The notes under the pieces were generated by a model. It had not been told where the DNA came from, did no database searches, and saw only the letters and a list, made by a program, of their open reading frames with translations. A DNA stretch of 53,295 bases. It comes from a virus. Shown in pieces: positions 6,094 through 44,984 of this stretch. The DNA lies in the IMG/VR virus record IMGVR_UViG_3300021085_000042, positions 1 through 53,295 of that record. One strand, given 5' to 3'. Each line of letters starts with the position of its first letter. Position 1 is the first letter of the stretch. The position numbers were made by a program, and so were the translations under genes.

Positions 6094-6109
6094 TTCACCT
6101 CTCCATTCA

Positions 6110-8624: not shown

Positions 8625-8643
8625 AGTTTATTCACCTTTAGTT

Positions 8644-8684
8644 AAGTATACCGAAGAGCTTTATTGCTCTCCAGTATATTTATA
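8644..8684 (-). promoter_or_regulatory. Late promoter TATAAATA overlapping a long hairpin
   Basis: TATAAATA, the T4 gp55 late-promoter sequence, reads on the minus strand at 8684-8677. It overlaps one arm of an inverted repeat (8644-8659 against 8666-8681, six-base loop) in which 15 of 16 positions can pair as RNA, allowing two G-U wobbles. Transcripts starting at the late promoter would keep only the inner GGAGAGC/GCUCUUC stem; read-through RNA from the right would fold the whole hairpin. Confidence 0.7.
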
Positions 8685-8696
8685 ACTATCAGCGGA

Positions 8697-9566
8697 TTAA
8701 CTATCAGCGACTACAGCGTCATCTGCGCCATCAACACCAACGTCACCTGCAGTACCTGCGGCTACTTTCATCGGTACAATAACTTCTACAACATTGCGAG
8801 TTACTGCGCCAGACTTTGCGGTAAGAGTGTGAGCAGTACCTACACCAACAGCAGTCAAGTCTTTCAGACCTGTTGCACCTTTTGCTTTTGCGTTTGCCGC
8901 AGAAGTGTAAAGCTGAATCATGCCTGGACCAACATTACTTACGAAGTAGTCATCGCCGTCAGTCAAACCAGCAATTGCTGTTCCACCGTTATCGGCATAA
9001 GTCACTTCTTCGCCAGTTGCAAATGTTGCTTCGCTTCCACCACCTAGATGAATAACATCAGTAGCAATGTCAACTACACTTGCTTGTGTTGCATCGATTG
9101 TTACAGCAGTAGCGGGTACTGTCTTAGTATTGTACTCAACCCAACCAGGAGTCTGAAGACCCTTAGCACGGTTAGCGGCAATTCCTGCTTCTGTAGTATC
9201 TACAAAGTAGATATCATCAGGTACTTTAACTAAGTTATGCCCTGCGCCTACACCTAAACCAGTAAGTGATTTAAGACCTGTAGTTGCGTGACCGGCAACA
9301 GCTTGTGCTTTAGTGCCGTATAGTTTGATAGTATCAGCATCAACAACATTAACGAATACGGTAGCCGCATCAGTCAATCCAGTGATAACAGTTCCACCTG
9401 CGTCATTGTATTGTACAGCATCACCAGTTGTGAATCCGTGTGCTGAAATTTTAATTGTATTTGATGCTAGTACAACGACTGTGGCGCTGGTTGCATCAAA
9501 AATTGTAGTAGTTGCTTCCCACTTAGGCGCTGCCGCCAAAGTATCAACTGTTCCCCATAGTGCCAT
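8697..9566 (-). CDS. Virion structural protein with internal duplication
   Basis: 289 aa, beta-rich and poor in charged residues, beginning MALWGTVDT, like a family of abundant virion proteins in marine T4-like phages. Two similar blocks of about 85 residues are visible: one with HGFTTGDAVQYND..ITGLTD...TIKLYGT...LTGLGVGAGH and one with FATGEEVTYADN..IAGLTD...MIQLYTS...LTAVGVGTAH. They are separated by PGWVEYNTKTV. The repeat suggests two copies of one small beta domain. Preceded by a possible late promoter (AATAAATA) and an AAGGAG site. Function on the particle is unknown. Confidence 0.65.
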   Translation of the reverse strand: MALWGTVDTLAAAPKWEATTTIFDATSATVVVLASNTIKISAHGFTTGDAVQYNDAGGTVITGLTDAATVFVNVVDADTIKLYGTKAQAVAGHATTGLKSLTGLGVGAGHNLVKVPDDIYFVDTTEAGIAANRAKGLQTPGWVEYNTKTVPATAVTIDATQASVVDIATDVIHLGGGSEATFATGEEVTYADNGGTAIAGLTDGDDYFVSNVGPGMIQLYTSAANAKAKGATGLKDLTAVGVGTAHTLTAKSGAVTRNVVEVIVPMKVAAGTAGDVGVDGADDAVVADS

Positions 9567-9598
9567 TTTATTTCTCCTTTATTAATGGTTCTTTAATA

Positions 9599-9606
9599 TA
9601 TTTATT
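9599..9606 (-). promoter_or_regulatory. Possible late promoter AATAAATA
   Basis: AATAAATA on the minus strand 33 bases before the 9566 start codon. It fits the relaxed NATAAATA form and sits in front of a structural gene, but the first base differs from TATAAATA. Confidence 0.45.
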
Positions 9607-10972
9607 GTACGTAACAGTTCAGTTCGTATTTTGCGCCCATATTATACACTTGAATCTGAAGCATTTGACGAACGGGCTTGCCTTTTTTCATCAACTTGAT
9701 CGAGTAAGAGTTGGTCTTATCTTTGCTAGGCTTTTTAGGACCAGTAGCAACTTTATCATGCCAATCGTCTTCATCAATATCAAATCCTTTTTTCTTAGCA
9801 ACTGCAATTGCTTCTTGCACTGCACCACTAAAAGTGTTATGATATAGTTTGTAGTTGGGCGCTTCTTGAAGGTCTTGTTGGACTTCTTCATTAACAACCT
9901 CTTCATTATAACCAGGCTTGATAGCTAGAAGACCCATCTTAGACTTAGGCACTTTTAGCATCTTGGCAGCCTTCATTTTGGCTCCGTATAGATCCTTTGC
10001 TTCGCTCTTTTTGATCTCTACTTTCTTACCGTTATAAATTGCTACCCATCCAGCCATCTTAGACTCTTCGATGTTTTCTGGCTTATGTGGCTTACCACAC
10101 GATTCACAAATTTTCTTTCCACACTCGCAACCACAGTCACAGTAATCTTCTTCACTGTCTTCTTTTACGACTTTACCGTTCTTAGAGATAATGCCCTTGT
10201 ACCCTTCCTTTTCCTTATCGGCAAGATATTTCTTGGCATATACCAATAGGTTGAAAGGCATCGTCCGAATCGGTCCACGCTTTGACATTGAATACTTAAC
10301 TATAAACTTCTCTTCGAGTACTTCACCATCTTCTTCAGCTTCATTGAGTTGCTTTTTCAGCTTATCAATTTTTCTCTGAATAGCAACTTTCTTCATCTTA
10401 ACAGAAGATGTGTTACCAAAGAAAGTCTTGAGATACTTCTCTGCTTGATCAATCTGCTTTTGAATCTTAGCCTTGTCTACGCCTTCATCTAGTTCAACTT
10501 CTTCACGCATAGTCTTCAGAGCATGTACCATATCTTTGTATGATTTGCCCATTGCAGTTTGAAGTTTCTCTTTATTATCTGGCTTACGAAAAGAAGCAAA
10601 CTTCTTAAGTGCAAGTTCAATAACTTTTGGAGGCAACTTAGCTTTCTTACCATCAGCAAATTGAATAGGAAGATTACCTCTCACGTCTGCCGCTTTACGC
10701 AACTGCATGATAATGTTCATCTTAGCGCCAGCTTTATCTTTGTCAGTTGCAACTAAGTCGAGGTCAGCAGGATCGAACTTCTCATTCACATCTTCGTTTT
10801 GACGCTTAAGTACCGCCCTAACTTGTGGATGATCAGACAATCCTTTTTTCATCTTCTCAATAGCTTTGACTGCACCAGTCATATTGCCACCGGCATAGCG
10901 TTTATCAGACGCAATACCAATCGCTTGCTTGACATGCATAGGACTAAATTTTTCGTTTAGTTCGTCAGTCAT
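9602..10972 (-). CDS. Modular lysine/glutamate-rich protein with Cys cluster, probable internal virion protein
   Basis: 456 aa, strongly charged. Modules visible: an N-terminal helical part (residues 1-160), a coiled segment (KAKIQKQIDQAEKYL), a basic block (KFIVKYSMSKRGPIR), a cysteine cluster DYCDCGCECGKKICESCG near residue 280 that could bind zinc, and a segment KMAGWVAIYNGKKVEIKKSEAKD that recurs in marine phage proteins. Modules are joined by acidic stretches (EEVELDEG, EEDGEVLEEK, YNEEVVNEE). Such spacing resembles the neighbouring giant protein at 14070. TAA of the upstream gene touches this ATG. No enzymatic motif was recognised. Confidence 0.6.
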   Translation of the reverse strand: MTDELNEKFSPMHVKQAIGIASDKRYAGGNMTGAVKAIEKMKKGLSDHPQVRAVLKRQNEDVNEKFDPADLDLVATDKDKAGAKMNIIMQLRKAADVRGNLPIQFADGKKAKLPPKVIELALKKFASFRKPDNKEKLQTAMGKSYKDMVHALKTMREEVELDEGVDKAKIQKQIDQAEKYLKTFFGNTSSVKMKKVAIQRKIDKLKKQLNEAEEDGEVLEEKFIVKYSMSKRGPIRTMPFNLLVYAKKYLADKEKEGYKGIISKNGKVVKEDSEEDYCDCGCECGKKICESCGKPHKPENIEESKMAGWVAIYNGKKVEIKKSEAKDLYGAKMKAAKMLKVPKSKMGLLAIKPGYNEEVVNEEVQQDLQEAPNYKLYHNTFSGAVQEAIAVAKKKGFDIDEDDWHDKVATGPKKPSKDKTNSYSIKLMKKGKPVRQMLQIQVYNMGAKYELNCYVQ

Positions 10973-13614: not shown

Positions 13615-14073
13615 TTATTTTTTCTCCAAAACATTTTCATTCCCTTCGTGTATCTTTTTTGTGAAAGTCTTTGGGTAGCTGTACACGTGTTTTAATAATT
13701 CATGAACTTTCACATCTGCTTGCATGATATCTATATTTCCACCTACGTTTCGAGCGGCTAACCATCGATGATGTCCGTCAATGATATAGTTATCTTTACT
13801 CACAATCAGAGGTTTTGCTTGACCAAGAGTCTTGATCTTAGCGATTGCCCCTACAATCTTATCTTTGTTAAATTCTTTCTGAATAGGCTTTAAACTCTTA
13901 GCAGGAACCTTAGTCTTTTTCACAGCAACGTTGTTCTTCTTCAGATGCTTGATAAGTCCATCATAATCTTTCGATCTTACTTGAGGCATCTTGTCTCTTG
14001 TAAAACCTAGAGTATCTGTGGACTTAGGTTCATAGACCTTAAGTTCTGACACAAAGTTCCTAAACTTCTTCAT
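13615..14073 (-). CDS. ParB/sulfiredoxin-fold protein with capsid-targeting-like N-terminus
   Basis: 152 aa. The middle contains a ParB-type core: LGQAKPLIVSKDNYIIDGHHRW with the IDGHHRW motif, where ParB-like and sulfiredoxin-like enzymes bind nucleotide. Such domains act as DNA-binding CTPases, nucleases or kinases; catalytic type cannot be fixed here. The first eleven residues MKKFRNFVSEL fit the F-x-x-F-x-x-E leader shared with neighbours. Start overlaps the stop of the giant upstream gene as ATGA. The endolysin gene follows one base after its stop. Confidence 0.75.
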   Translation of the reverse strand: MKKFRNFVSELKVYEPKSTDTLGFTRDKMPQVRSKDYDGLIKHLKKNNVAVKKTKVPAKSLKPIQKEFNKDKIVGAIAKIKTLGQAKPLIVSKDNYIIDGHHRWLAARNVGGNIDIMQADVKVHELLKHVYSYPKTFTKKIHEGNENVLEKK

Positions 14074-17000
14074 ACCTTGATCACTTTACTAGATGTGCCA
14101 AAGTTCTTCTTACGCATGATAGTCTTGTTGACTACTTCGTATTCATCCTTTTCGCTATCATAGTTAATGACGATAGGTAAGTTCAAATCTGCTTGAATGT
14201 CCTTAAGCACTGCTTCGATGTCAGGATTTTGACGAATGTTCTTTGCTTTGTTCTTTGCAATCTTTTTGAATACTCGCTGAAGTTCTGCAATAGTGATAGC
14301 AGGCTTATTGCGATCATCGTTCATTCTGTCTGCAAAATGCTTAGTGAATTCTACGTCAATGCCAAACTTGTCGAGTAATCTATCTGCAAACCTTTCTAAG
14401 TCATTCAACTGCTTCTGAGTAACTTCTTCTTCGAAGTGTGCTTCAAATAGATCATCTACTGACTCAGTGACAGTCTCGCCAGGAGTATCTTTCTTGTAAC
14501 GCTTAGTAACTTTTTCAGTACCTCTATCACCAGCACCGCCCTGTTCGAATACATAATCACTAGGCACCATATCTGCTAATGTTCTGCCATCAACGCCTGC
14601 GTAACTTTTTGCGATTTGTGCGGCATAGTATCCTACGCCATGTCTAATCTTACCTTTTGACTCTTTCTTTTTTCTGTCGAGTACAGTGGTGAGAGTTTTT
14701 AATGCGTGTTGGTAGTTCTTTTTGTTAGTAATAGATCCTAACTTAGACCTGATAATGTCTTGTGTACTTCTCTCTGCAAAATGCTCTTCAAACATGAGGT
14801 CTTCAGTACTAGATTCTTCAAATGCCTCCCTTGCTACAATTCTCCAGCCTTGCTTCTTCATTCTATCAGCAGTAGCTCCATCGACTTTGCGTTGGTAAGG
14901 TCCTTTCTTAACTACATAGACTTCTGCGCCTTCATTCTTAGGCACACAGTTAGGCACTAGCTTACCGTTTTTCTTTTTCATGCCTCTTTGTTCGTGAGAG
15001 TCCCAGCATGGATCATCCTCTTTCAAAGACTTACCTTCGCTATCGTAACCAGGTTTACCAGCTTTCTCTTTCTTAGAGATAGCAATTGCGGCACGTTGTG
15101 CGGCTGAAACTGCGCCCTCTTCTAACTTGCCACCAGCATCTACGAATGCGGCAACAGCCATTTGTTGTTTCTTCTTATCAGACTTACCTGCAAACTGAGG
15201 AGCATCTGAGTTTTTGAAGTCATCAATCCAAGCTCCAAGTCCATCGGATACTTTTAACTTCTCTTCAATCTCTTCTTTCTTAGAACTACCACGAACTTTA
15301 GCGGCTAGGTCTGCGTCTGCTTTACCCCATGTGCCCGATGACTTAGTGATGAAAGAATTGACACGTGCAAAGCCCCATTGCTGTGGAGTAGTACCTGGTC
15401 TATGTCCAGTTCTCCAAGCGGCAATACCTCTGTTATAAACTTGACGTAAAATACCAAGTGGCATTCCAGACTTCTCTGCTTTCTTCTTTAATCCTTCATC
15501 GCCTTTTGCTTCATCTAATGTTACCTGATCAACAATGTCGTTTGTAGTCTCTTCGATGAATGCAATTAAATCTTTATCAGAGTGAAACTCTTCTTTGTTA
15601 ACTTGAGTGATCTTCTTACGTAACTCTCTAGTAAGCAATCCATCCATCTCACGCTCATGCTCTTTAGATAAGTTTTGTCTTTCGTCTTTGTGTTGTCTTT
15701 TAAGTCGCTTCTCTGCATCTGTATTGATAGTTATTTCAGCTATTTCGACTTCTTCTTTACGTTGTCTGAATGCACGAAAACGGCGGTCTAGTTTTATTTG
15801 ACCTTCTTTATTAAACATCTGATGATATCGTTTAGTGTGTGTAGATGTTTTTGTTTTTGCTTCTGCATCACCAGGTGCTGGTTTGTACGCATCTGGATTA
15901 TCATCATCCATCTTAGCGCCCTTCTTGAAATGTGCATCACGTTTTACTTTAGTAGACTTAGCAAGACCTTTATGATATACTGCTGGCTGTGTGCCTTTAC
16001 GATCAGCAATATCTTTGTCTTGACCTACAGTAGGCTCCTCAAACAAGTTAGAGAATTCTTCATTGATGATATAAGACTCAAACTCTTCGTTAGCACTTTT
16101 CTTGCCAGATAATTTAGCTAGGTCTGCTTTTCTAACCGAAGGTAGTAGCTTCTTAGCGATTCTATCAATAGCTGATTTTTTCTTTGCAACACGCTTATCG
16201 ATAAGCATCTTCTCAGAAGGAGATAGTGAAGCATAGTTCTCACCCTTCTTGCCTGCAACCTTTTTACGAATTACTTTGATGGCAGCCTTTCTAGCACGAA
16301 CTTTAAGTTTGTCCATAGTAGCGGCTTTCTTTGCCATACGTCTACGACCTTGAGCGATCTTAGACTTGAACTTACGCATGGTTATTGATCTCATGCGTCT
16401 TTGCTGAATAGTCAACGCTTCGTCAAGCTGTTCTGACATCTCTGCAATCTTCATGCCGCCACGTACCATATCGTATACGTCTTGTGCGTCACCTTGAAGT
16501 CTGCGAGGCAAACCAGTTTTGAATTTTTTGAAATCGCCCTGTGAGGCTGCGGCTCTCATCTTAGATGCAGACATACCAGAAACACCTTCGGAATCTGGGT
16601 CACGATCTCCAGCAGATACGATTTTAATGCTATCGAATCTATAGTCTTTGCCGTTATACTTATTTAAGAGTTCATCGAATTGTTTGATTCGATCTTGACC
16701 AACAACTAGAACTACTTTAGAAAAACTCTTCTGTAATTCTTGCATGATCTGAATGATAGTACGTGAATTAGATTTTACGATTATGTTACCAAATGCTTTC
16801 TTGGCAAGCATAATTTTGTCATCGTAATCTAGAGGATTCTTTTTAGCATCTTGACTATGAGAGACATAGACTAAAGGAGTTGCTCCTTCTTGCTTTGCAA
16901 CTGATTTAATTTTGTTGACTAGTTTTTCATGACCAACCGTGATTGGATTCATTCTACCCCAACCGAGAACGACTGTCTTGTTGGGAGCTTCTTCAAGTTT

Positions 17001-17150
17001 AGGATTGATCTCAATCGAATTCTTTACGAGAAGTTCGTCTTTTACTTTCTTCGAAGCCTTCTTTGACTTCTCTGTCTTATCCGTCTTCTTTTTAGAAGTC
17101 GTTTCTTCACCAGAGTTTGCCTCTGGATTATCCATAGAATCATCTTGCAT
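14070..17150 (-). CDS. Giant modular protein: nucleotidyltransferase domain plus basic and repeated modules
   Basis: 1026 aa. After a 57-residue Lys-rich lead, residues about 58-215 form a cytidylyltransferase/NMNAT-like domain: VVLGWGRMNPITVGHE (the TxGH version of HxGH), VVGQDRI, and SGMSASKMR at the second active-site motif. Next comes a very basic helical stretch (about 240-345, RRMAKKAATMDKLKVRARK), then modules with RTGHRPGTTPQQWGFARVNSF, DGLGAWIDDFKNSDAP, DPCWDSHEQRGMKKKNGK and a C-terminal part with EFTKHFADRMNDDRN. Acidic joints recur, e.g. NLFEEPT, MFEEHFAER, LFEAHFEEE. These resemble places where the gp21 protease could cut. First gene after the late promoter at 17207. Probably a packaged polyprotein, by inference. 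Confidence 0.7.
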   Translation of the reverse strand: MQDDSMDNPEANSGEETTSKKKTDKTEKSKKASKKVKDELLVKNSIEINPKLEEAPNKTVVLGWGRMNPITVGHEKLVNKIKSVAKQEGATPLVYVSHSQDAKKNPLDYDDKIMLAKKAFGNIIVKSNSRTIIQIMQELQKSFSKVVLVVGQDRIKQFDELLNKYNGKDYRFDSIKIVSAGDRDPDSEGVSGMSASKMRAAASQGDFKKFKTGLPRRLQGDAQDVYDMVRGGMKIAEMSEQLDEALTIQQRRMRSITMRKFKSKIAQGRRRMAKKAATMDKLKVRARKAAIKVIRKKVAGKKGENYASLSPSEKMLIDKRVAKKKSAIDRIAKKLLPSVRKADLAKLSGKKSANEEFESYIINEEFSNLFEEPTVGQDKDIADRKGTQPAVYHKGLAKSTKVKRDAHFKKGAKMDDDNPDAYKPAPGDAEAKTKTSTHTKRYHQMFNKEGQIKLDRRFRAFRQRKEEVEIAEITINTDAEKRLKRQHKDERQNLSKEHEREMDGLLTRELRKKITQVNKEEFHSDKDLIAFIEETTNDIVDQVTLDEAKGDEGLKKKAEKSGMPLGILRQVYNRGIAAWRTGHRPGTTPQQWGFARVNSFITKSSGTWGKADADLAAKVRGSSKKEEIEEKLKVSDGLGAWIDDFKNSDAPQFAGKSDKKKQQMAVAAFVDAGGKLEEGAVSAAQRAAIAISKKEKAGKPGYDSEGKSLKEDDPCWDSHEQRGMKKKNGKLVPNCVPKNEGAEVYVVKKGPYQRKVDGATADRMKKQGWRIVAREAFEESSTEDLMFEEHFAERSTQDIIRSKLGSITNKKNYQHALKTLTTVLDRKKKESKGKIRHGVGYYAAQIAKSYAGVDGRTLADMVPSDYVFEQGGAGDRGTEKVTKRYKKDTPGETVTESVDDLFEAHFEEEVTQKQLNDLERFADRLLDKFGIDVEFTKHFADRMNDDRNKPAITIAELQRVFKKIAKNKAKNIRQNPDIEAVLKDIQADLNLPIVINYDSEKDEYEVVNKTIMRKKNFGTSSKVIKV

Positions 17151-26397: not shown

Positions 26398-26641
26398 ACA
26401 GTTTCTTTTCAAATTGTTCAATCTTTCCTGTACGATTAGGCCAAAGAATATATTCTTTCTCTGGGTTTGCCTTAAGGCTATTAAGTAGTGGACTAATAGA
26501 GTTATACAACTTGTCCAACTTCGTTTGTAATTGATCAGCAGTGCCACTTGTCTCTGTGATCTGAATGTTTGCTTTTTGTACCGCTTCTAGTTCTGTTTCA
26601 TCGACTGCGGTAAAGCCGAAATCAAATATATCGTCTGTCAT
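26378..26641 (-). CDS. Conserved small protein between polymerase and uvsX (87 aa)
   Basis: 87 aa, acidic N-terminal half (DDIFDFGFTAVDETELEAV), then a helix and the C-terminal motif LWPNRTGKIEQFEKKLFDIY. That C-terminal pattern recurs in small proteins encoded near gp43 or uvsX in marine T4-like phages. No known activity. Its ATG overlaps the polymerase stop as ATGA (26638-26641). Confidence 0.6.
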   Translation of the reverse strand: MTDDIFDFGFTAVDETELEAVQKANIQITETSGTADQLQTKLDKLYNSISPLLNSLKANPEKEYILWPNRTGKIEQFEKKLFDIYTG

Positions 26642-29142
26642 GAGAAAAATCCCTCCAATGAGTTTATGTGTTCAAGTTCCCAGTTGATGGCATCAGACAC
26701 CATCTTCAACGGCTCTTTGAACGTTTTGTTAAATTGAGTTTCATAGTCAACATCACTATCTAGACCAAACTCTTTAGGCAAAAACTGCGGAAAAGATATT
26801 ACATTTTCCATCAGAGGATTAGGCACTTTCATGTAACAGAATTTTACCTTACTGCCATTCTTAACTTCTTCTACAGACAAACCATACTTCTTGATCTGTT
26901 GATTAAAGAGAAGTGCGCCTCTGACGTGGATAGGAGTACCTTTCTTATAGATGGTATTCGTATCTCGCCACTTTTCAATGTCACTCACACCACGAGGAAA
27001 TGATACATCTTCAGGTGGTAAAGACTTGAACTCTTCATAGAAGTTCTTCACAAATTCTTGCAATTCTTTCTCTGTAGAGTTAAGCATAATGCGGTACGCT
27101 TTTACAAATTTGTCACGCACCACTTGAGGCGTTGAGGACTTGACGGCTTCAATGCCCATAATTTTGAGTTTTGGTTCTGCGTATTGAACCCCTTCGTTGT
27201 TGTGTACGTTAAGTATATAGCGTTTCTTTGCCATCCATATACCCTTGTCTGCTATAGCTTCACGTGCCATGACCATACGATTGTCGTATGCATTCATATT
27301 TTCAAACATATTGTGGTACGCTTTCTCTAAGATAGGCACCAGTTTTTGTTCACACGCTTGATCGATAAACTTCACCGGATCATTAGGCTTCACTGCCTCA
27401 ACAAGAGGTCCCATGTTAACATATAACGAATCAGTGTCCATAGCGATCACATAATCTTCATCATCAGATTTCAATATGTTATTCATGGCTCTGTTCATAG
27501 CCTGCTCTGCCCATTTGATAGATAGCTGACCAGACAATGTGATGCCTTCTGCGATAACCATTTCAAAGTATCTAAAGTATTGATTACCTAAAGCACCATA
27601 AAGAGAGTTCAGCAAAATCTTAATAGCTTGCTGAGTGTTCTCTAGTATATTTATCTGTCTCTTCAAGTCTGCTGAGTTTTGACCTTCATTTTCTTGCTTA
27701 AGTTTAAGCATCTCTTTTTTGATCACAGCACGTTCATCATAAAGACCAATAATGATAGTTGGGAAAACACCACGCTTATCTTTACGATACATCGAACCAT
27801 TAGCGGCAACTGATAGGTCACGTTCTCTAGGTGCATCAGACACTGGATTCTTTAGATAATGTTCTACACCACTAGCAGTGAAATCATCACCTTTAACTAG
27901 TGTCTCGGGTGACATATTGTACTGCACGATGAGGTTGGGATAAAGTGAGTTTAAGTCAAATGACGTTACCCATTCAGTCATGCCAACTTTAGGCTCTTTC
28001 ACATAACCACCAGGATATGGATCTTTATGCTTGCGAGTGGCAGGTGGCACTGCAATTTTGAGATCGTACAGATATCGATATATGATTGAATCCCATATAC
28101 CAGTTGTACCGAACGCATCATTGTAGTTCACGCCACCTTTGTATGCCACGATCAATGCTAGATCCATCAAACCAGTTTGCTTGTCTATCTTATCAACGAC
28201 TTGAACGTCACGAATATTATAGTCAATAAACTTCTGGTGATTTTGTTTATAGAGTCCATGTAGAGAACCGTATTCAGAGTAAGAAAGTTTCTTCTCACCT
28301 AGAACAACAGACGCTATGTGATCTAATGCATATGATGCCTGATTACCATAGGTAAAACCAAACTTTTGAAACAGGTCAAAGTAATCGACTTGCTGTACAC
28401 CGTATATCTCGTAAGCATCCATCTCTTTGCCTTTGATGCCAATCTTTCTGTACTTTGTGATACCGAAAGGAGAGAACTGCTTTGCTACTTTGTCACCGAG
28501 TATACGAATAGTACGATTGATCATATACGGAACATCGAATAGTCGAATGTTCCAACCAGTTAGAATGTCTGGACAGTTTGCATGCCAAAACGTTAGAAAC
28601 TTTAGCATCAGGTCTTCTTCATTTTCACAAAGACGATACTGTACCATACATCCGTCTAGCTTGAGTTCACAGTCTTCTAGGCGCCATTCGCCAAGACCCC
28701 AAACGTGATACACTTTAGACTTACTGCTTTTGTATGCAATCGAAATGATAGGATGCTTGGCTTCATCTGGCTCTGGGAATCCATCATCAGATGCAACTTC
28801 GATATCGATATTACCAACCTCGATACGTTTTAGATCATATTTGATTTGACCAGGAAACTTATCTTGGATGAATTGAGCAACAAAGTTGTTATTGCCATAT
28901 ATCTTAAAGTTATCTACACTCTCATACTTCTTGACGAATTCAGTCGCTTCTTGCATAGAGTCGAGTTGAATAGGGTCAACAGGCACGCCATCGAAAGATT
29001 TCCAACCACTCTCATTTTTCGAAGATTTAAGATACATCGTTGGTTTGAACGGTATCTTCGTTTGAATGCGTTTACCATCATCCGTGTAGCCACGAAATAA
29101 AATGTTACTGCCATAGCGATTTACGCAGGTATAAAAACTCAT
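26638..29142 (-). CDS. 43: DNA polymerase, family B, gp43
   Basis: 834 aa replicative polymerase with 3'-5' exonuclease. Exonuclease motif I is VGNIDIEVAS; further exonuclease residues lie in LTGWNIRLFDVPY and YNIRDVQVVD. Polymerase motifs: A SFDLNSLYPNLI, B KILLNSLYGALGN, C IAMDTDSLYV. The very C-terminus SLEGFFS resembles a clamp-binding peptide that would contact gp45. Slightly shorter than T4 gp43 (898 aa). Transcribed from its own early promoter 30 bases upstream. Confidence 0.96.
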   Translation of the reverse strand: MSFYTCVNRYGSNILFRGYTDDGKRIQTKIPFKPTMYLKSSKNESGWKSFDGVPVDPIQLDSMQEATEFVKKYESVDNFKIYGNNNFVAQFIQDKFPGQIKYDLKRIEVGNIDIEVASDDGFPEPDEAKHPIISIAYKSSKSKVYHVWGLGEWRLEDCELKLDGCMVQYRLCENEEDLMLKFLTFWHANCPDILTGWNIRLFDVPYMINRTIRILGDKVAKQFSPFGITKYRKIGIKGKEMDAYEIYGVQQVDYFDLFQKFGFTYGNQASYALDHIASVVLGEKKLSYSEYGSLHGLYKQNHQKFIDYNIRDVQVVDKIDKQTGLMDLALIVAYKGGVNYNDAFGTTGIWDSIIYRYLYDLKIAVPPATRKHKDPYPGGYVKEPKVGMTEWVTSFDLNSLYPNLIVQYNMSPETLVKGDDFTASGVEHYLKNPVSDAPRERDLSVAANGSMYRKDKRGVFPTIIIGLYDERAVIKKEMLKLKQENEGQNSADLKRQINILENTQQAIKILLNSLYGALGNQYFRYFEMVIAEGITLSGQLSIKWAEQAMNRAMNNILKSDDEDYVIAMDTDSLYVNMGPLVEAVKPNDPVKFIDQACEQKLVPILEKAYHNMFENMNAYDNRMVMAREAIADKGIWMAKKRYILNVHNNEGVQYAEPKLKIMGIEAVKSSTPQVVRDKFVKAYRIMLNSTEKELQEFVKNFYEEFKSLPPEDVSFPRGVSDIEKWRDTNTIYKKGTPIHVRGALLFNQQIKKYGLSVEEVKNGSKVKFCYMKVPNPLMENVISFPQFLPKEFGLDSDVDYETQFNKTFKEPLKMVSDAINWELEHINSLEGFFS

Positions 29143-35356: not shown

Positions 35357-36007
35357 TTAACGAGATTCGATTGCAATCCAGTATTGGACTTTATCGGATT
35401 TAAAGTGTGCCATACCTTTAGAAGACAATGTGACCTCGTAGTCGGTTGGTACCAATTTTAAGTTATCAGTTTTGATGATCATATTAAATGGATCTGTGCT
35501 GACACCTTCAGCAACAACGGTATTGTAATTATCTGCCGTTGATGTTTTGCTGTCGACCGCTGACATGGTAATAGTACTACCATCGCCAATGAAAGCAATC
35601 TCGGGCAATTGAAGAACGCCTGCCGCTTGGCGAACGCTTTCAATATCTTGCCACTTAATATTGACGGATACTTCAGGATCGGGAACGACAATGTCCTTCT
35701 CGGGTGGAGTGACCATCAATGATTCAGATGTATAAGTGTAACGAAGTTCGCTTCTACCACCTTTAATGGTAAAACGATCTTGACCAAATACTACATCTGG
35801 ATTATCGAATAATGCGAGAGTGCTTAAGAACCTGGACAGGTCATAAACACCTGCTTGGGTCTCAACAGTCTCATCGATTGTTGCCGCAGCCATAACTGTT
35901 TTTTGCGGGGATATTGTTCGAACTACTGAACCTGGCTTGAACACAATGCTAGGGTTGATAGTCGAAAAGTTTTTGAGTACGCTCAATGTGTCTGTACTAA
36001 ATTTCAT
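35357..36007 (-). CDS. 45: Sliding clamp, gp45
   Basis: 216 aa (T4 gp45 is 228). Trimeric ring that tethers gp43 and, with gp55, activates late promoters. Recognisable clamp segments: MKFSTDTLSVLKNFSTINPSI at the start, the VYDLSRFLSTLALFDNPDV helix-loop, and a C-terminal SKGMAHFKSDKVQYWIAIES strand. AAAGGTG site before ATG. Preceded by an exact late promoter, an unusual arrangement discussed in the findings. Confidence 0.93.
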   Translation of the reverse strand: MKFSTDTLSVLKNFSTINPSIVFKPGSVVRTISPQKTVMAAATIDETVETQAGVYDLSRFLSTLALFDNPDVVFGQDRFTIKGGRSELRYTYTSESLMVTPPEKDIVVPDPEVSVNIKWQDIESVRQAAGVLQLPEIAFIGDGSTITMSAVDSKTSTADNYNTVVAEGVSTDPFNMIIKTDNLKLVPTDYEVTLSSKGMAHFKSDKVQYWIAIESR

Positions 36008-37984: not shown

Positions 37985-38218
37985 TTATGCAAATAATTTA
38001 GACATATCTGCATATACTTTGTTATAAGCATTCACTTCATAACACCAGTTACTAAAGAAATCGTCATCATCGGCATCAGGAGTAGCGCAATGTTCTACCC
38101 AAATCCTGTCCATTGACTTCATTCCCTCAAGACAATCACCTCTACCGTGACTGCTCATAGTTTGCCACGCTTGGCTCAACTCAACTTCTTCTTGGTGAAA
38201 ACTAGGAATTCTAAACAT
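37985..38218 (-). CDS. Conserved small acidic protein (77 aa)
   Basis: From ATG 38218. Reads MFRIPSFHQEEVELSQAWQT, HGRGDCLEGMKSMDR in the middle, and DDDFFSNWCYEVNAYNKVYADM near the end. Similar FFxxWxYEVNAYN endings occur in phage hypothetical proteins. Function unknown. The open frame extends 20 codons farther to 38278, but those codons cover the promoter. Confidence 0.6.
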   Translation of the reverse strand: MFRIPSFHQEEVELSQAWQTMSSHGRGDCLEGMKSMDRIWVEHCATPDADDDDFFSNWCYEVNAYNKVYADMSKLFA

Positions 38219-38250
38219 ATCTTCTCTCTCTTTTTTTAACTTATACATGT

Positions 38251-38278
38251 AGTATAGCAGATAGGAAGGTAATGTCAA
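38251..38278 (-). promoter_or_regulatory. Early promoter for the 77-aa gene at 37985
   Basis: Minus strand: TTGACA (38273-38278), 16-base spacer, TATACT (38251-38256). AAGGT/ACCTT flank the -35 as a 5-bp stem. Confidence 0.75.
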
Positions 38279-38288
38279 CCTTTTTTTG

Positions 38289-39827
38289 TCATTTAACTAA
38301 AGTATTTTTCCAGTCAAAGTCTTTTACTAGTTCCATACCATAGTTGTTGGTGCCAGTAGGTCTATCATAGCCAGACTTGAACTTTAGCTTATTAGTCTTG
38401 AATGGACCATAGTCTACAAAGTGATGCCATCTACCATATCTCCAGACAAGTCTTGCCACGTCTGGATGCATGTCAACTAGCATCTGAGACTTATTCACAG
38501 TACCTTCAGTATTGTATCCAGTCTCTTTAAACTCCTCATTCTCAGTGTTCTCAGCATGATAGAATTCAGCAGTATTACCACCGCTCACTGTTTGAGTTGC
38601 GGCTTTACCTTGCATAAACGCATTGAACTGTAGACACGAATCTCCGTCTTTCATCACTCTGAGACAGATATCAGTATCTTCATTATATCTACCACGCCAT
38701 CTATGCTTACAATCATTCCGAATAAGAAGAGTAGAATATATACGGGTGTTGGCAACGTAAGCAGGATACTTTTGATTCGGGTCAATAAAGAACCTATACT
38801 GTGGACCAGCAATGTAAACATTATCATATCTCCCTACGAAGTCTTCCATTACTTGAAAGCCTACACCACTCTCAAATCGAATACGTTCATTATTGTGAAG
38901 TCTATAGAAGTCTGAGATGTTGTCATCTAATACCCAGTGACTTGTAGCACCGATACTGATCGAATGATCCCATGCCCAGTTTCTAGCACGACCAGGACCA
39001 TCTCCGTGATTGGAGAAAGGTGCAACCAGAAGTGTCACGTAATCTCTCATATTGAATACATCAAGTGCTTTATCATAGCTATCGAGGTCTTGAGGCTCAA
39101 TTACTATGTAATGAGGTATTTGCATACGAGATAGTGATCTAGAAGTAAACATTGAATCTGCACGACCCTTAGATACGATATACATCGGATGCTCAGGTAA
39201 AGTTCTACCTTCTGGCTGAATCCAACGTAGTAACAGGTTCTTTGTGATGTGTTGTTCTGGATGCCAAATGCTTTTAGTCTTCTCAGTTATCTCTTGACCA
39301 ATCTTCTGCGAGAACTCTTTATAATCTTCTTCGTTTCTGAAGTTTAACGTAATCGCTCTGAACTTGATCTTGTCCTCTTGAGTGTATTCTGGCATACCAA
39401 CCCAGTGCTTCTTCCAGTTTGATTCATACTCTGATTCAACAGACTTCACTTTACTGAAGCCTGGTCCATTGTATTCTGGAACAAGAAGATCGGCAGATAT
39501 TTCTACCTGTTCATCTTCTTTAATCAACGAGTTTGATGGTGCCGCTGGATACGATGTCTCTTTGACATAGCCAGGAATCATCTGATTGATCTTAGTACAA
39601 AAATCTACCATATCATCTTGCGTTCTAAAGTGAACGTAGATTGATTTCCAGATATCGTTCTGCACAACTTTCTTGACTCTAGTAGCATCTACTAGCTTGT
39701 CAGGAATAGGCTCATCAAAAAACTTATCTAAGCTTATGCTGTAAGAGTCATTCTTACGTGCCTCATCATCCATGTAGTTATCGTAGTTGGCACTTTCTTC
39801 GATCATGGGTTTTGTGTTATCTGTCAT
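38289..39827 (-). CDS. TET-associated glycosyltransferase (TAGT)-like protein
   Basis: 512 aa. The C-terminal 300 residues fit the TAGT glycosyltransferase family: PMYIVSKGRADSMFTSRSL, YIVIEPQDLDSY, GPGRARNWAWDHSI, WVLDDNISDFYRL (DxD-like DDN) and YIAGPQYRFF, then RYNEDTDICLRV. The N-terminal part holds two related blocks, SIYVHFRTQDDMVDFCTKI and AITLNFRNEEDYKEFSQKI. TAGT enzymes are proposed to glycosylate modified bases in phage DNA. It closes a cassette with a GT-B enzyme and a cytidylyltransferase, and also has an internal promoter. Confidence 0.75.
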   Translation of the reverse strand: MTDNTKPMIEESANYDNYMDDEARKNDSYSISLDKFFDEPIPDKLVDATRVKKVVQNDIWKSIYVHFRTQDDMVDFCTKINQMIPGYVKETSYPAAPSNSLIKEDEQVEISADLLVPEYNGPGFSKVKSVESEYESNWKKHWVGMPEYTQEDKIKFRAITLNFRNEEDYKEFSQKIGQEITEKTKSIWHPEQHITKNLLLRWIQPEGRTLPEHPMYIVSKGRADSMFTSRSLSRMQIPHYIVIEPQDLDSYDKALDVFNMRDYVTLLVAPFSNHGDGPGRARNWAWDHSISIGATSHWVLDDNISDFYRLHNNERIRFESGVGFQVMEDFVGRYDNVYIAGPQYRFFIDPNQKYPAYVANTRIYSTLLIRNDCKHRWRGRYNEDTDICLRVMKDGDSCLQFNAFMQGKAATQTVSGGNTAEFYHAENTENEEFKETGYNTEGTVNKSQMLVDMHPDVARLVWRYGRWHHFVDYGPFKTNKLKFKSGYDRPTGTNNYGMELVKDFDWKNTLVK

Positions 39828-40915
39828 GTAAAAAACTCCGTTAAATCTGAACGAGATTTATTCTTATCACTATAGCGCATATCGATTACTTTGTCAATAC
39901 AAGATTTCCACTTAGACAAACTATGTTTCTCTCGGGTCATCTCTGCGATTTCATCTCTACGGTTTTTCATCGTAATAGCGAATTCTCGTACAGTTGTTTC
40001 AAACTCATCGCTTGAACACTTTCTGTTAATCTTAAAGTAGTGTGACCTGCTAGCGGCAACGATTTCACTCGCATGAATATCGTTATCACCAGTCATTAGA
40101 ATAGTAGGTACACCACAGCCTAATGCTTCCATTGCAGTGATTCCCCACGATTCTTTAGGCCAAGTAGAACAGAAAACTTTCGATCTAGAGATGTGTTCTA
40201 TGACCTCGCTGTGAGGTAGACCTCTCATAGTATGTCTAGGTTCTGTCCAGTGCTGATTGTCCTGTACATAGTCGTTCACTGTTGAACTTTTATATACACC
40301 ATCGTTAGTCATCACAAGACTATTTAGGTCGGACGAATTTCGTAGTTTTTGATGTATCAAGAATGGTGCCTTTTCGTTGTCACATCTACCTACAGTCGAT
40401 ACATCGTAGATAAGGTCAGATGAATAAGGCATATCATCTGGCAAGAATGACGGGTTGATGAAACCTTTGATTGCACCGAACTGCACATCTTTGATACGCT
40501 TTGCCATATTTCGATGAAACTCTAATTGATCTGGACTTACAAAGTAGATATGGCAACCACTATCATTCAAATCTCTAAGAATGATTCCAAGTTCTACCAT
40601 ACGTATGTCCCGCACAAGTGGTTCATGCATAATACAAATTAATGGTACATTAAAAGACATCATCATGTTCGACCACCAAGGGTTATTGAACAGAATCATA
40701 TCTGGATCATGCAATGCTATCGCATCACGGATAACTCGCTTGGTTTGCCTATTCTCTTTATCTTGCTTAGTGATAGCTACAGGTATAATACCATCGATAT
40801 TATCTTCTAAGTCTTTACAAAACTTTTCAATTCCGCCAGTAATAACTTTACCTTTAGCGGAGTTGTCAGTCTTTACAACTTCAAAGTGGGTTGAGTAAGG
40901 CAGAAGTATCTTCAT
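39824..40915 (-). CDS. GT-B fold glycosyltransferase (GT4-like)
   Basis: 363 aa. Two Rossmann-like halves: an N-terminal part with KVITGGIEKFCKDL and MILFNNPWW, and a C-terminal part with YDVSTVGRCDNEKAP and KESWGITAMEALGCGVPTILM, the donor-nucleotide E-x7-E type motif of GT1/GT4 enzymes. Transfers a sugar from an NDP-sugar; acceptor unknown, possibly DNA base or cell-envelope glycan. ATGA overlaps link it to both neighbours, so the three work as one unit. Confidence 0.8.
   Translation of the reverse strand: MKILLPYSTHFEVVKTDNSAKGKVITGGIEKFCKDLEDNIDGIIPVAITKQDKENRQTKRVIRDAIALHDPDMILFNNPWWSNMMMSFNVPLICIMHEPLVRDIRMVELGIILRDLNDSGCHIYFVSPDQLEFHRNMAKRIKDVQFGAIKGFINPSFLPDDMPYSSDLIYDVSTVGRCDNEKAPFLIHQKLRNSSDLNSLVMTNDGVYKSSTVNDYVQDNQHWTEPRHTMRGLPHSEVIEHISRSKVFCSTWPKESWGITAMEALGCGVPTILMTGDNDIHASEIVAASRSHYFKINRKCSSDEFETTVREFAITMKNRRDEIAEMTREKHSLSKWKSCIDKVIDMRYSDKNKSRSDLTEFFT
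39869..39897 (-). promoter_or_regulatory. Early promoter before the TAGT-like gene
   Basis: Minus strand: TTGACA (39892-39897), 17-base spacer, TATAGT (39869-39874). Located within the last codons of the GT-B gene. Confidence 0.7.
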
Positions 40916-41367
40916 TTATTTTTATTCACGAAATCCGACTCAGCCCACACTACACTTTGACGTAGATTGGAAGATGAAAATCTGTGGTCTCTATTGTTGA
41001 AATGTAGATCGATGTCTAGTTTGTCACAAACTTCTCTACCTGTGAAATCTTTGTCTTTATATTCGTCACCCAATATTCGAACATCAATCTTGTACATCTC
41101 AAGGATATCAAGCAAATCTCGTTCGGTAGAATATACTACTATCTCGTCCACATACTTAATGGCAGATAGTTGAGTATAACGCTCAACAATACTTTGGATA
41201 GGAGAGTTCTTCTTTGGTCGATCCACAGAAGGATCGATTTGCAGACCACATATCAAGTAGTCACATTGATTTTTCGCTTCACGTAACATCATCACATGTC
41301 CGGCATGTAACAAGTCAAACGTACTAGCAGTGAAGCCTACTCTTTGTATATTCATAGTGTTTTCCAC
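40912..41367 (-). CDS. Cytidylyltransferase (TagD/glycerol-3-phosphate cytidylyltransferase-like)
   Basis: 151 aa from GTG 41367 behind GAGGAAGG; ATG 41355 is an alternative and gives the more usual N-terminus. The HxGH motif is in ASTFDLLHAGHVMML, VDRPKKNSPIQSIVERY follows, and RFSSSNLR stands at the ISSTxLR position. Makes CDP-activated glycerol, ribitol or a similar alcohol/sugar phosphate. It probably supplies an activated donor for the glycosyltransferases next to it; that link is inference. Confidence 0.82.
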   Translation of the reverse strand: MENTMNIQRVGFTASTFDLLHAGHVMMLREAKNQCDYLICGLQIDPSVDRPKKNSPIQSIVERYTQLSAIKYVDEIVVYSTERDLLDILEMYKIDVRILGDEYKDKDFTGREVCDKLDIDLHFNNRDHRFSSSNLRQSVVWAESDFVNKNK

Positions 41368-41399
41368 GTGTCTTGCCTTCCTCTCATATTATAGATTGT

Positions 41400-41428
41400 A
41401 TCATATCACATTACAAGGTGCCTGTCAA
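41400..41428 (-). promoter_or_regulatory. Early promoter for the glycosyltransferase cassette
   Basis: Minus strand: TTGACA (41423-41428), 17-base spacer, TATGAT (41400-41405). Confidence 0.75.
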
Positions 41429-41443
41429 GACACGTGTACTGTA

Positions 41444-41626
41444 TTATTTAAACTGATCAGTAACCACTTTGCGTAGCGTAACGATCTCATCTTTGATAGT
41501 AAGCTTCTCTACTTTCATTCTTTTAACAAATTGTTCTGGTGCTTTTTCTGCTTCTGCGGCTTCGATACAGGCATGCAAGTGTTTATGCCTTCTTTCAAGC
41601 GCAACTAATCTATCTTGGGACGCCAT
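41444..41626 (-). CDS. DUF465/YdcH-like small protein
   Basis: 60 aa. QDRLVALERRHKHLHACIEAAE and MKVEKLTIKDEIVTLRK match the YdcH/DUF465 family: two antiparallel helices with H-x-x-L and LKK-x-KLxLKDEI-type motifs. This family is widespread in proteobacteria and of unknown function. Lies between gp46 and the cytidylyltransferase promoter, nine bases from the gp46 stop. Confidence 0.7.
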   Translation of the reverse strand: MASQDRLVALERRHKHLHACIEAAEAEKAPEQFVKRMKVEKLTIKDEIVTLRKVVTDQFK

Positions 41627-41635
41627 GTTAATCTC

Positions 41636-43348
41636 CTATGTTGTTGCAATTCTACTGAAGTTCTTAACCTTTTCAAATTTTATCACACTGTGGAATTTAT
41701 CATATAGTTGGTCACCTTTATGACTGATGATAAAGATATTTGAATCGGCAGTCAACTCTTCAATGATCTTGAGGAACTCTTCAGTACCAGCACTATCTAA
41801 AGAAGAATCCATAATCTCGTCCATGATTAGCAAGTTAGTTGACACAGAGTTACGTAGTTTAGATACGGCTCTCCATGTAAAGAGAAGCGCAAGGTCAATC
41901 CTCAACTTCTCGCCCTCTGAAAAAGAGGAATAAGAAAACTCGTCACGAAAACGAGACTTGATCGTTTCGTTAAAGTTCTCATCTAATTCAAACTGAACAA
42001 AGAAATCCATTGCGGATAGATATTTGTTAATCAGCTTATTCATCACAGGTACATATTGTTTGATAATGCGGGTCTTGATACCACCATCTTTTAGCATAGA
42101 CGCTACCACTGCTAGAATCTCTTTATGATCAAACAGTTCAGTCTGGCTTTCGTGGTGATTAACAAGTTCTGCTTCTAATTGATTAATGTCAGATGTATCG
42201 ATCTCTTCAACTTCTTGCTGTGCGCCATCAAGTTCTTTCTTAATAGACTTGCATGTATTCATGCCAATCTTGACGTTTGCTCTATGCTCACTGACAGAGA
42301 TATTCTTTTCAGATATAGTATCTTCTACAAGATCAATAGCACATAGGCGCTCATCGACCACTACACTCTTATGTCCAATCTCTTCTTTTGCTGTTTCGAT
42401 TTCTGTTGCTTTTGATCGTGAGGATTCGATTGTTTCTTCTTTAAATTCGTGTTCGATCCCTTGTTTACAGGTTGGACAGTTGTCATGCTTTTGGTAGAAT
42501 TCAACGTCTTTACGTAACTTGTTAAGCCTGGTTGTAAGATCATGATTTACCTCTTGAAACTCTGCTAACTTCTTTTTCTGTTCGGCTTTGTCACCGATAC
42601 TGTTATTTAGTTCTTCGATAGCATCAAGTAATACTTCCATCTTTGCTTGCTCTTCTTCAACAAACATAACTTGGTCTTTCAACTTATCTTTTAGCTTACC
42701 TACTTCAGTCTCTTTGATTTTTCTAATAGACTCGTTATGCGTCTTAGCACTGTCAATCTTATTATCAAGTAGATCAATCTGATACTTGATATCAGTGATT
42801 TCACTCTTATTGTCAGACAGTCTTTCTTTCAACAAAGTATTCATTGTAGTGAAGATTTGAATGTCCAGAAGGTCTTCAATGATGTCTCTTCGCTCACCAG
42901 TTTTCAACTGCATGAATGGTACAAAAGTAGAACTGCCTAAGACAACTACTTGACCAAAAGACTTATAGTTAAGCTTTAGAATAGTTTCTTCTAAATATGT
43001 CTGGTAGTCACGGGCAGCCGCATCTTGGTTTAACAGTTCGCCATTCTTCCACACTTCGAATATGCCTGGCTTAATGCCACGCTTAATCACATAAGCATTG
43101 CCGCTTATACTGAAGTATGCTTCTACTAGCAGTTCCTTATTGTTAACACTGTTTAGTAGCTGGTACTTATTGATCTTTCTAAAGGGTTTACCATACAACG
43201 CAAAAGTCAGAGCATCAAGCATGGTCGACTTACCAGCTCCATTATCTCCAACGATAAGCGTAGACTTGCTTCGGTTTAAAAAAACTTCCGTGAAAGTATT
43301 ACCAGTACTTAAAATGTTCTTATAACGAACCTTTTCAAATAGTATCAT
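41636..43348 (-). CDS. 46: Recombination nuclease ATPase subunit, gp46 (SbcC/Rad50-like)
   Basis: 570 aa (T4 gp46 is 560). Walker A IVGDNGAGKSTMLDAL at the N-terminus, a long coiled coil broken by the zinc hook CPTCKQG near residue 300, then the ABC signature FSEGEKLRIDLALLF and Walker B NLLIMDEIMDSSLD. With gp47 it resects DNA ends for recombination-dependent replication. Overlaps gp47 as ATGA (43345-43348). Confidence 0.95.
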   Translation of the reverse strand: MILFEKVRYKNILSTGNTFTEVFLNRSKSTLIVGDNGAGKSTMLDALTFALYGKPFRKINKYQLLNSVNNKELLVEAYFSISGNAYVIKRGIKPGIFEVWKNGELLNQDAAARDYQTYLEETILKLNYKSFGQVVVLGSSTFVPFMQLKTGERRDIIEDLLDIQIFTTMNTLLKERLSDNKSEITDIKYQIDLLDNKIDSAKTHNESIRKIKETEVGKLKDKLKDQVMFVEEEQAKMEVLLDAIEELNNSIGDKAEQKKKLAEFQEVNHDLTTRLNKLRKDVEFYQKHDNCPTCKQGIEHEFKEETIESSRSKATEIETAKEEIGHKSVVVDERLCAIDLVEDTISEKNISVSEHRANVKIGMNTCKSIKKELDGAQQEVEEIDTSDINQLEAELVNHHESQTELFDHKEILAVVASMLKDGGIKTRIIKQYVPVMNKLINKYLSAMDFFVQFELDENFNETIKSRFRDEFSYSSFSEGEKLRIDLALLFTWRAVSKLRNSVSTNLLIMDEIMDSSLDSAGTEEFLKIIEELTADSNIFIISHKGDQLYDKFHSVIKFEKVKNFSRIATT

Positions 43349-44412
43349 AAATTAATAGCCTCATTATGTAACTCTTGCAGAACCTTTTCAATCTTAGTTT
43401 TGTCTGTACTAATCTCTAAGTTCTGGACGTATTGCTTCAATATAGTCAACGTATCTTGTGCTTCATCAACCAGTTCACTCTCATCGATCACATCTAAGTT
43501 CATATGATCTTCGACAACCTTAATATCGCAAGGTGAGGCTGCCTGTAGTCTATCTAAGAATAAGTCAAAGATATAAGGGTTAGTCTTGTTTCTGACAATA
43601 ACTTTAATGAAAGTGTCTTTCAATTGAGTTGTGTCTAGATTTGCTATGTCTTCAATAGTCATATCAGCATCATCGTACATAATCTTATGAAATAAGCTGA
43701 ATGGATTACGAATATATTCTATAGTACGTGAATCAGTATCAAACACACTGAATCCACGTTTTTGATCATGATCAGACCAAGTCATTTCATATTGAGCGCC
43801 TAAGTAAGATATATTACCAATAGAAGATGGCTGATGAAAGTGACCAGAATATACTGAATCAAACTTAGCAAACGTACTACGGTCCATACCATCAGCACAT
43901 AGATGTCCTTTGTCCATCTCGTAACCAGTGATCTCAAAGTGACCCATGAGTATCTGCGCTTTCGTATCAGCCATTGCTTTCATGGACTCTGACCAGTTAT
44001 CAGAACACAGCCAAGGAGCAAGCATAATCTTACACCCGTCCATATCTAACTCAACTGGCTTTTCCCAATACAAATGTAGATTTTTATGGCTCGTATTACC
44101 ATATAACTGTCTGAGACTGTTTACATCATTAGTGTTCTTAAAGTAAGTATCATGGTTGCCAGCAATCATATACATTTCAATGCCTTCGTCAGCACATACT
44201 TTCATGAAATGATCTTCAAGGTTCTTAGCAGTAACGAAATTAATATACTTACGCCGATCTGTGACATCGCCTAAATGAAAGATAGTCTTGATATTATTTT
44301 CACGTAGATGTGGGAAGAAAACTTCCCGATAGAACTTTATCTGATGTTCAGCAATTGCGGCATTATCATTTCTCGCACCCCAATGTGTATCATTTAGGAT
44401 AGCAATCTTCAT
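43345..44412 (-). CDS. 47: Recombination nuclease subunit, gp47 (SbcD/Mre11-like)
   Basis: 355 aa calcineurin-type phosphoesterase. Metal-binding motifs in order: ILNDTHWGAR, FHLGDVTDRR, IAGNHDTYF, LMGHFEITG and YSGHFHQP. Forms the gp46/47 complex with exo- and endonuclease activity. Start overlaps the gp55 stop as ATGA, so the late sigma factor and the nuclease are co-expressed early. Confidence 0.95.
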   Translation of the reverse strand: MKIAILNDTHWGARNDNAAIAEHQIKFYREVFFPHLRENNIKTIFHLGDVTDRRKYINFVTAKNLEDHFMKVCADEGIEMYMIAGNHDTYFKNTNDVNSLRQLYGNTSHKNLHLYWEKPVELDMDGCKIMLAPWLCSDNWSESMKAMADTKAQILMGHFEITGYEMDKGHLCADGMDRSTFAKFDSVYSGHFHQPSSIGNISYLGAQYEMTWSDHDQKRGFSVFDTDSRTIEYIRNPFSLFHKIMYDDADMTIEDIANLDTTQLKDTFIKVIVRNKTNPYIFDLFLDRLQAASPCDIKVVEDHMNLDVIDESELVDEAQDTLTILKQYVQNLEISTDKTKIEKVLQELHNEAINL

Positions 44413-44984
44413 TCTTTTTCCTCTTTCGTTTTATCCTCATCGATGAACTTCTCTAAGCCTTTCTTGGATTTGGTCTGGGCTTTCTTCTTGTCTTCCATCT
44501 TCTTTTCGTATCCACGAACAAAGTCGGTCATGTAGTCATTATTCAAATCGATATAAGCAGGTTCACCATTAGTGTCAACAGTGCCTTCTGCACGATCAAC
44601 AGCAGTGCCAGTCATAACAGAATTCTCTGTGACCTTATGTTTGATATACAGTTGCTTCTTCTCTTTCTCAATTCTCCGCAGAAATGCGTACCAAATAATC
44701 TGTGTAAAATAAGCAAACGGATTATGGGACTTGTTCGGATCAAAGTTACCTAGTGCTTGTATCGCATTCTCCAAACCATCGCTGATCATCTCATCTTTAT
44801 ATGAGTAGCCAGAGAAGTTAGGCTTAGATGCAAGCCTAGTAGATATCTGATAGATACACTGACCTATATAGTTGGGTATCTGTGGTCTTTTGTCACCCGA
44901 GTCCTCTGCTTCATTGCATAGCTTTTTATATGCTATGATAGCTTCCAGAAACTCTGGATTGTTAACGTAATTTCTCTTTGCCAT
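44409..44984 (-). CDS. 55: Late-transcription sigma factor, gp55
   Basis: 191 aa from ATG 44984, eight bases after AAGGAG. Divergent sigma-like protein that directs host RNA polymerase to TATAAATA. Sigma region 2-like helices: FSGYSYKDEMISDGLENAIQAL and NPFAYFTQIIWYAFLRRIEKEKKQ. The C-terminal tail is Lys/Glu-rich. Length matches T4 gp55 (185). Its presence explains the late promoters in this window. Confidence 0.92.
   Translation of the reverse strand: MAKRNYVNNPEFLEAIIAYKKLCNEAEDSGDKRPQIPNYIGQCIYQISTRLASKPNFSGYSYKDEMISDGLENAIQALGNFDPNKSHNPFAYFTQIIWYAFLRRIEKEKKQLYIKHKVTENSVMTGTAVDRAEGTVDTNGEPAYIDLNNDYMTDFVRGYEKKMEDKKKAQTKSKKGLEKFIDEDKTKEEKE

Follow-up and report, generated by a model that had tools for sequence, protein, structure and literature searches.

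Three adjoining genes of this marine T4-like phage, encoding a nucleotidyltransferase (NT), a glycosyltransferase of the GT-B type and a protein of the TAGT family, probably make up a replisome-coupled module for the glycosylation of phage DNA. Judging from the sequences, we favor this reading with reasonable confidence over glycosylation of the cell envelope or the virion; beyond the family name, a DNA target finds support in the clamp-type motifs that two of the cassette proteins contain and in the repeated location of the cassette among replication genes. On the favored reading these would be phage DNA glycosyltransferases that are coupled to the replication clamp and organized as a fixed core with a swappable partner.

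The window (the whole stretch of DNA that was analyzed) is a record of 53,295 bases, i.e., a 53-kb fragment, in which the annotated genes for portal, scaffold, major capsid, UvsY, helicase, gp55, gp47, gp46, gp45, clamp loader, RegA, gp43, UvsX, gp41, primase, ribonucleotide reductase, ThyA and DHFR lie only on the minus strand. The highest identity of its polymerase to a phage polymerase in the searched collection is 53%, and a near-identity search of known phages with the window gave no match. The NT, GT-B and TAGT genes sit between gp46 and gp45, also on the minus strand, and are linked by two ATGA overlaps of 4 bases for each neighboring pair, the GT-B/TAGT junction reading ...TTTACATGACAG. 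The features concerned are as follows.

40912-41367, minus strand: NT, nucleotidyltransferase (open reading frame list, PF01467)
39824-40915, minus strand: GT-B glycosyltransferase, 363 aa (open reading frame list, PF00534)
38289-39827, minus strand: TAGT protein, 512 aa (open reading frame list, PF20691)
41400-41428, minus strand: sigma70-like promoter with extended -10, TTGACA-17-TATGAT (score 11/12)
35357-36007, minus strand: gp45 sliding clamp, the presumed docking partner (family match)
41636-44412, minus strand: gp46 and gp47 recombination nuclease genes, directly upstream of the cassette (genomic context)
4745-5623, minus strand: ThyA, an ordinary thymidylate synthase, by sequence not a hydroxymethylase

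A preliminary description of this DNA had proposed that a cytidylyltransferase-like protein with HAGH and RFSSSNLR motifs, a GT-B enzyme and a TAGT protein are joined by ATGA overlaps, which the open reading frames and Pfam matches bear out. It had also placed a promoter at 41400. A promoter-like site is indeed present ahead of the cassette at 41428-41400 (11/12, with TG preceding the -10 and a spacer of 17), but 25 such sites were found in the region against 21.7 expected in shuffles, so that it is a plausible candidate promoter. The arrangement of the cassette, in terms of gene content and order, is not chance, since 80 relatives with TAGT were fetched and other contigs repeat the order NT/GT-B/TAGT. 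The gene for a 60-aa DUF465 protein separates gp46 from the cassette (41444-41626, minus strand) and is conserved in many relatives. Elsewhere in the window, and unrelated to the cassette, are two neighboring genes (14070-17150 and 13615-14073, both minus strand), one for a protein of 1026 aa that combines a second CTP_transf domain with DUF5824 (phrog_3041), the other for a ParB-like protein.

NT matches PF01467 (CTP_transf) over the cut-off (E=5e-14), has both the HxGH (HAGH) and RFSSSNLR motifs and, among solved structures, is nearest to ethanolamine-phosphate cytidylyltransferase (ECT, E=7e-23) and glycerol-3-phosphate cytidylyltransferase (TagD, E=4e-12); it is probably an activator of a sugar or polyol phosphate. 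It is an optional part of the cassette, being present in only some of the TAGT loci (19) and with differing partners, and for this reason we rejected it as an indicator of the identity of the sugar. The GT-B protein matches PF00534 (Glycos_transf_1) at E=2e-6, with 28.1 bits against a cut-off of 26.4, and its structure model (pLDDT 83.6) aligns with GT-B enzymes at VIA Z values of up to 27.3, and with a glycosyltransferase of phage HY126 at Z 24.2. The closest fold matches include sucrose-phosphate synthase and a cyanobacterial pterin glucosyltransferase. We are confident, on the strength of the model, in assigning it a GT4-like GT-B fold, which fixes neither donor nor acceptor. A tblastn search with this protein found no match in 50,697 phage records.

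The TAGT protein begins with a disordered tail, followed by two repeats of an unnamed domain (approximately residues 56-210, KTKSIW) and by the TAGT domain at residues 214-416, which matches PF20691 with E=1.7e-39 and 136.3 bits against a cut-off of 27.5. Its PHROG label is beta-glucosyl-HMC-alpha-glucosyltransferase (E=2.6e-42). The catalytic half is almost invariant in 25 diverse copies, and the residues D301 D302 N303 (DDN) and N382 E383 D384 T385 D386 (NEDTD) are invariant in 25 sequences; we take these conserved acidic motifs to be catalytic, as in GT-A enzymes. The full structure model is of low confidence (mean pLDDT 62) and had no PDB match at E<=0.001, leaving the N-terminal repeats unnamed; TAGT proteins were among its best matches in a viral structure library, and a PHROG scan with the N-terminal domain returned nothing. 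The member of this family in T6 is regarded as the enzyme that attaches a second glucose to the phage DNA (PMC13390438, PMC13216743). Of 753 phage genomes in a 2026 study, 288 had a solitary TAGT gene, with neither alpha- nor beta-glucosyltransferase, whose function the authors described as undefined (PMC13216743).

The 80 loci recovered in the TAGT search outline a fixed core combined with changing partners. At these loci TAGT is 61-100% identical, even where gp46 and gp45 have fallen to 37-50% identity. The partner is GT-B in 25 first-set loci, c6 in 22, c38 (which has no PDB sequence match) in 6, a phosphomannomutase-like HAD protein in 7, a kinase and cytidylyltransferase-like fusion in 4 and an FkbM methyltransferase in 2. 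The c6 protein is a very different second TAGT-family enzyme (PF20691, E=8e-7) of the GT-A type, unrelated to GT-B, that often takes the second-glycosyltransferase slot in relatives and ends in the same motif. By comparison of these sequences, the partner is exchanged from locus to locus and TAGT itself hardly varies. In other lineages TAGT adjoins gp43 (L050-L063) or a dCMP deaminase (L078-L081) or is near gp32 (L044-L048), the deaminase, gp32 and some further genes having been named by reading the sequence; in L074-L081 the N-terminal domain is a separate gene. T6 has its alpha-gt gene in the same gp45-gp46-gp47-gp55 block and its TAGT gene beside gp42.

Several of these loci have features of their own. 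In L040 and L067 the FkbM methyltransferase (at approximately 9256-9999) takes the place between NT and TAGT, so that the sugar in these phages may be methylated. The 141-kb record G001, which contains locus L077, has many sugar genes, recognized by eye, besides its split TAGT operon (5329-6444, 78736-81676, 123732-133840 and 135680-140063), among them mutase-like, glycosyltransferase, epimerase, carbamoyltransferase-like and radical SAM-like genes. In Vibrio phage henriette 12B8 (L087) a TAGT match at 8001-8786 falls in an unannotated gap that runs from the clamp loader to dUTPase and is apparently an unannotated or frame-broken gene.

The case for DNA rests to a large degree on short motifs in the cassette proteins that resemble the clamp-binding tails of the gp43 and gp55 proteins of the window.

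39827-39850, minus strand: GT-B C-terminal clamp-type motif SDLTEFFT, residues 356-363 (L358 invariant, F361 nearly invariant)
39717-39734, minus strand: TAGT internal clamp-type motif SLDKFF, residues 32-37 (tail region, pLDDT < 50)
26641-26664, minus strand: gp43 DNA polymerase C-terminus NSLEGFFS, reference motif (sequence)
44439-44462, minus strand: gp55 near-C-terminal KGLEKFID, reference motif (sequence)

In T4, gp45 is bound by the C-terminal tails of gp43, gp55 and gp33, any of which can stand in for another, and a copy placed internally can also function (PMC2988020). The gp43 tail fits [ST][LI]xx[FL]F with a single further residue in 7 of 7 contigs, and the T6 tails are KASLDFLFG for gp43 and SPSLDFLYEAND for gp55. 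A tail of the Lxx[FL][FM] type ends all 25 first-set GT-B proteins as well as all 22 first-set c6 proteins, which belong to a different fold family, and 68 of 78 c6 proteins in the wider set (the wider GT-B and c6 homologue sets overlap the first sets). Of 274 protein families of at least 100 aa from eight contigs, just four (GT-B, c6, the polymerase and an endolysin) had the strict C-terminal motif, with 13 proteins observed against 1.0 expected by shuffling. The GT-B tail is kept down to approximately 30% identity and in 12 of 19 representatives after clustering at 70%; some distant GT-B homologues do not have it, which counts against DNA as the target. For TAGT, a looser form of the motif was present in 34 of the 37 distinct N-termini scored, including split N-terminal subunits, and the window copy scores well against a position matrix of gp43 and gp55 tails; since other sites in the proteome also score well, the motif in TAGT carries less weight than the glycosyltransferase tails. 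No obvious clamp motif was seen in the TAGT proteins of Aeh1, 65 and POP12, though their polymerases have one. Nor is there a clear copy in the T6 alpha-glucosyltransferase, although the T4 alpha-glucosyltransferase co-purifies with gp45 (PMC13216743), and the motif is thus not the docking route of every DNA glycosyltransferase. The same work reports that this contact is not the main cause of the alpha-glucosylation share in T4 (PMC13216743). A clamp-like tail also ends a small window ORF after TAGT (37985-38278, minus strand, ending ...YADMSKLFA), the listed TTG start of which falls on a promoter-like TTGACA at 38278; its true start is probably an internal ATG.

If the target is DNA, an enzyme that makes a hydroxylated base is to be expected, and the fact that none was found in the records searched counts against the DNA reading. 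The preliminary description had noted that ThyA retains the Asn typical of dUMP enzymes and that the window has neither a dCMP hydroxymethylase nor a TET-like gene; all of this held up, as PFNIASY is intact, the alignment of ThyA with canonical thymidylate synthase runs over the full length (best PDB E=2.8e-89), ThyA is the sole PF00303 match in the window, and no TET-like gene is among the family hits. Records G005 and G021 likewise have a single PF00303 match each, that of G005 being canonical when read. Four records with both TAGT and a second glycosyltransferase, all of unstated completeness, have no PF00303 match: G001 (141 kb, with a ThyX-like gene seen by eye), G031 (165 kb), G032 (153 kb) and G033 (172 kb). 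Tet_JBP gave nothing over the cut-off in 30 records, in a search without a positive control, and 15 records, the window among them, which may be fragments, had no C5-cytosine methyltransferase (PF00145), with 10 control genomes positive; the TET link implied by the name "TET-associated" thus finds no support in the TAGT-bearing records tested. Neither alpha-glucosyltransferase (PF11440) nor beta-glucosyltransferase (PF09198) is among the Pfam hits of the cassette proteins. The cassette records of 141-172 kb that have no enzyme of the thymidylate synthase family suggest that the acceptor is probably not the product of a T4-type hydroxymethylase, and since IMG/VR records are of unstated completeness the absence of thymidylate-synthase-family, methyltransferase and Tet_JBP genes is suggestive only.

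A 2OG-Fe(II) oxygenase (PF13759) that lies between gp47 and gp46, directly upstream of gp46-GT-TAGT, in L025, L027, L028, L033 and L036 was considered as the base hydroxylase and set aside; it is common in cyanophages and pelagiphages, occurs beside the cassette in one clade only (L025-L036) and is absent from 11 records including the window, leaving it a possible but unspecific candidate. Two TAGT-bearing isolates, Vibrio phage Kuja (L125) and Aeromonas phage 65 (L128), encode divergent proteins of the thymidylate synthase family that have no PFNIASY, and these are possibly hydroxymethylases.

There is a real, if less than even, chance that TAGT and its interchangeable partner ride the clamp and act on a base whose hydroxyl comes from neither a thymidylate-synthase-type hydroxymethylase nor TET/JBP, which would amount to an undescribed DNA modification. 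A base modification without an identified pathway has a precedent in the Krischvirus phages, the cytosine of which is modified (PMC13390438). The more ordinary chemistry, a sub-case of the DNA reading and compatible with it, is that TAGT uses hmC or 5-hydroxycytosine supplied by an enzyme of the gp42 type whose gene lies outside the window, as in T6 or RB69. The window is a 53-kb fragment and the known TAGT and arabinosylation systems rely on a synthase of the thymidylate synthase family (PMC13390438), yet the four records named above carry the cassette with no PF00303 match, their completeness being unstated, and the PF00303 proteins of the window and G005 are canonical (G021 having its single match); we regard this alternative as rather unlikely.

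Glycosylation of the host envelope (LPS or O-antigen) or of a virion protein, for example in superinfection exclusion, with the clamp-like tails being coincidental or serving another use, had been offered from the outset as the alternative to a DNA target. It can draw on the resemblance of NT to CDP-glycerol and CDP-ethanolamine enzymes of envelope chemistry, on the generic GT4 fold of GT-B, on the many other sugar genes of G001 and on Vibrio phage 1.076.O, in which TAGT is inside the head-gene block and adjoins the portal gene, a location that speaks against DNA. It is weakened, though still standing, by the clamp-type motifs and the replication-gene location, and we judge it improbable: a polymerase-type tail is common to two glycosyltransferases that are unrelated but occupy one and the same slot, TAGT hardly varies, as would not be expected of an enzyme that had to follow changing surface sugars, and the cassette has replication genes as neighbors. 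The proposal that the cassette acts on DNA has in turn been strengthened by these same features. It is very improbable that the tails reflect ribosome-binding and ATGA-overlap constraints of the downstream gene in place of clamp binding, for although the window codons TTA ACG GAG TTT TTT coincide with a GGAG-like site that precedes the TAGT start, the motif is still there, in other codons, where no next gene overlaps (9 of 14 distinct GT-B tails and 23 of 27 distinct c6 tails) and other overlapping window genes, NT and gp47, end differently.

On the favored reading, the cassette would add sugars to the DNA of the phage itself, at the replication fork or close behind it. A separate enzyme would produce a base with a suitable hydroxyl; TAGT, as predicted from its family, would move a sugar onto that base or onto a sugar already there; and the swappable second glycosyltransferase, GT-B in the window, would add the first or a further sugar, with NT, when present, supplying the activated donor. 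TAGT and the second glycosyltransferase are predicted from their LxxFF-type motifs to dock on gp45, which would couple sugar addition to replication. The modification may serve as a shield against host nucleases and CRISPR, and swapping of genes would alter the outer sugar. This offers a testable answer, for one large marine lineage, to the question of what solitary TAGT proteins do: the enzymes look docked on the replication clamp, and their target would thus be DNA during its synthesis. It also provides a sequence signature, in that a polymerase's clamp tail at the end of a glycosyltransferase could separate DNA glycosyltransferases from those of the envelope. The suggestion of a fixed core enzyme combined with swappable partners is accompanied by the suggestion that the acceptor base comes from a separate enzyme.

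Among isolates, the nearest TAGT proteins are those of Aeromonas phages Aeh1 and 65, Tenacibaculum phage PTm1 and Vibrio phage Kuja, which are 37-47% identical over approximately 360 aa, the similarity covering part of the N-terminal domain; these differ from the window in having no linked GT-B/NT cassette annotated alongside, and the proteins of Aeh1, 65 and POP12 in the lack of a clear clamp motif. The beta-glucosyl-HMC-alpha-glucosyltransferase of T6 and T2 belongs to the same Pfam and PHROG family and to a replication gene block of a T4-like phage. The T6 enzyme, however, has 261 aa, with neither N-terminal repeats nor a clamp-type motif, and is found beside gp42 with alpha-GT present, whereas in the window fragment gp42 was not found and a different second glycosyltransferase is co-operonic. 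The T4/T6 alpha-glucosyltransferase (GT63) is, like the window enzyme, a GT-B protein encoded in the gp45-gp55 block, and it is reported to associate with the sliding clamp (PMC13216743), but it is of another Pfam family (the window enzyme being PF00534/GT4-like) and contacts gp45 with no obvious C-terminal LxxFF tail. The arabinosylation system of RB69 (ORF003c GT-B, sugar-nucleotide genes and a 5-hodCMP synthase) resembles the window in combining a GT-B enzyme with an NTP-transferase that would serve a non-glucose donor (PMC13390438, PMC6024577); in the window no synthase of the thymidylate synthase family was found beyond canonical ThyA, and in its lineage it is TAGT that forms the conserved core.
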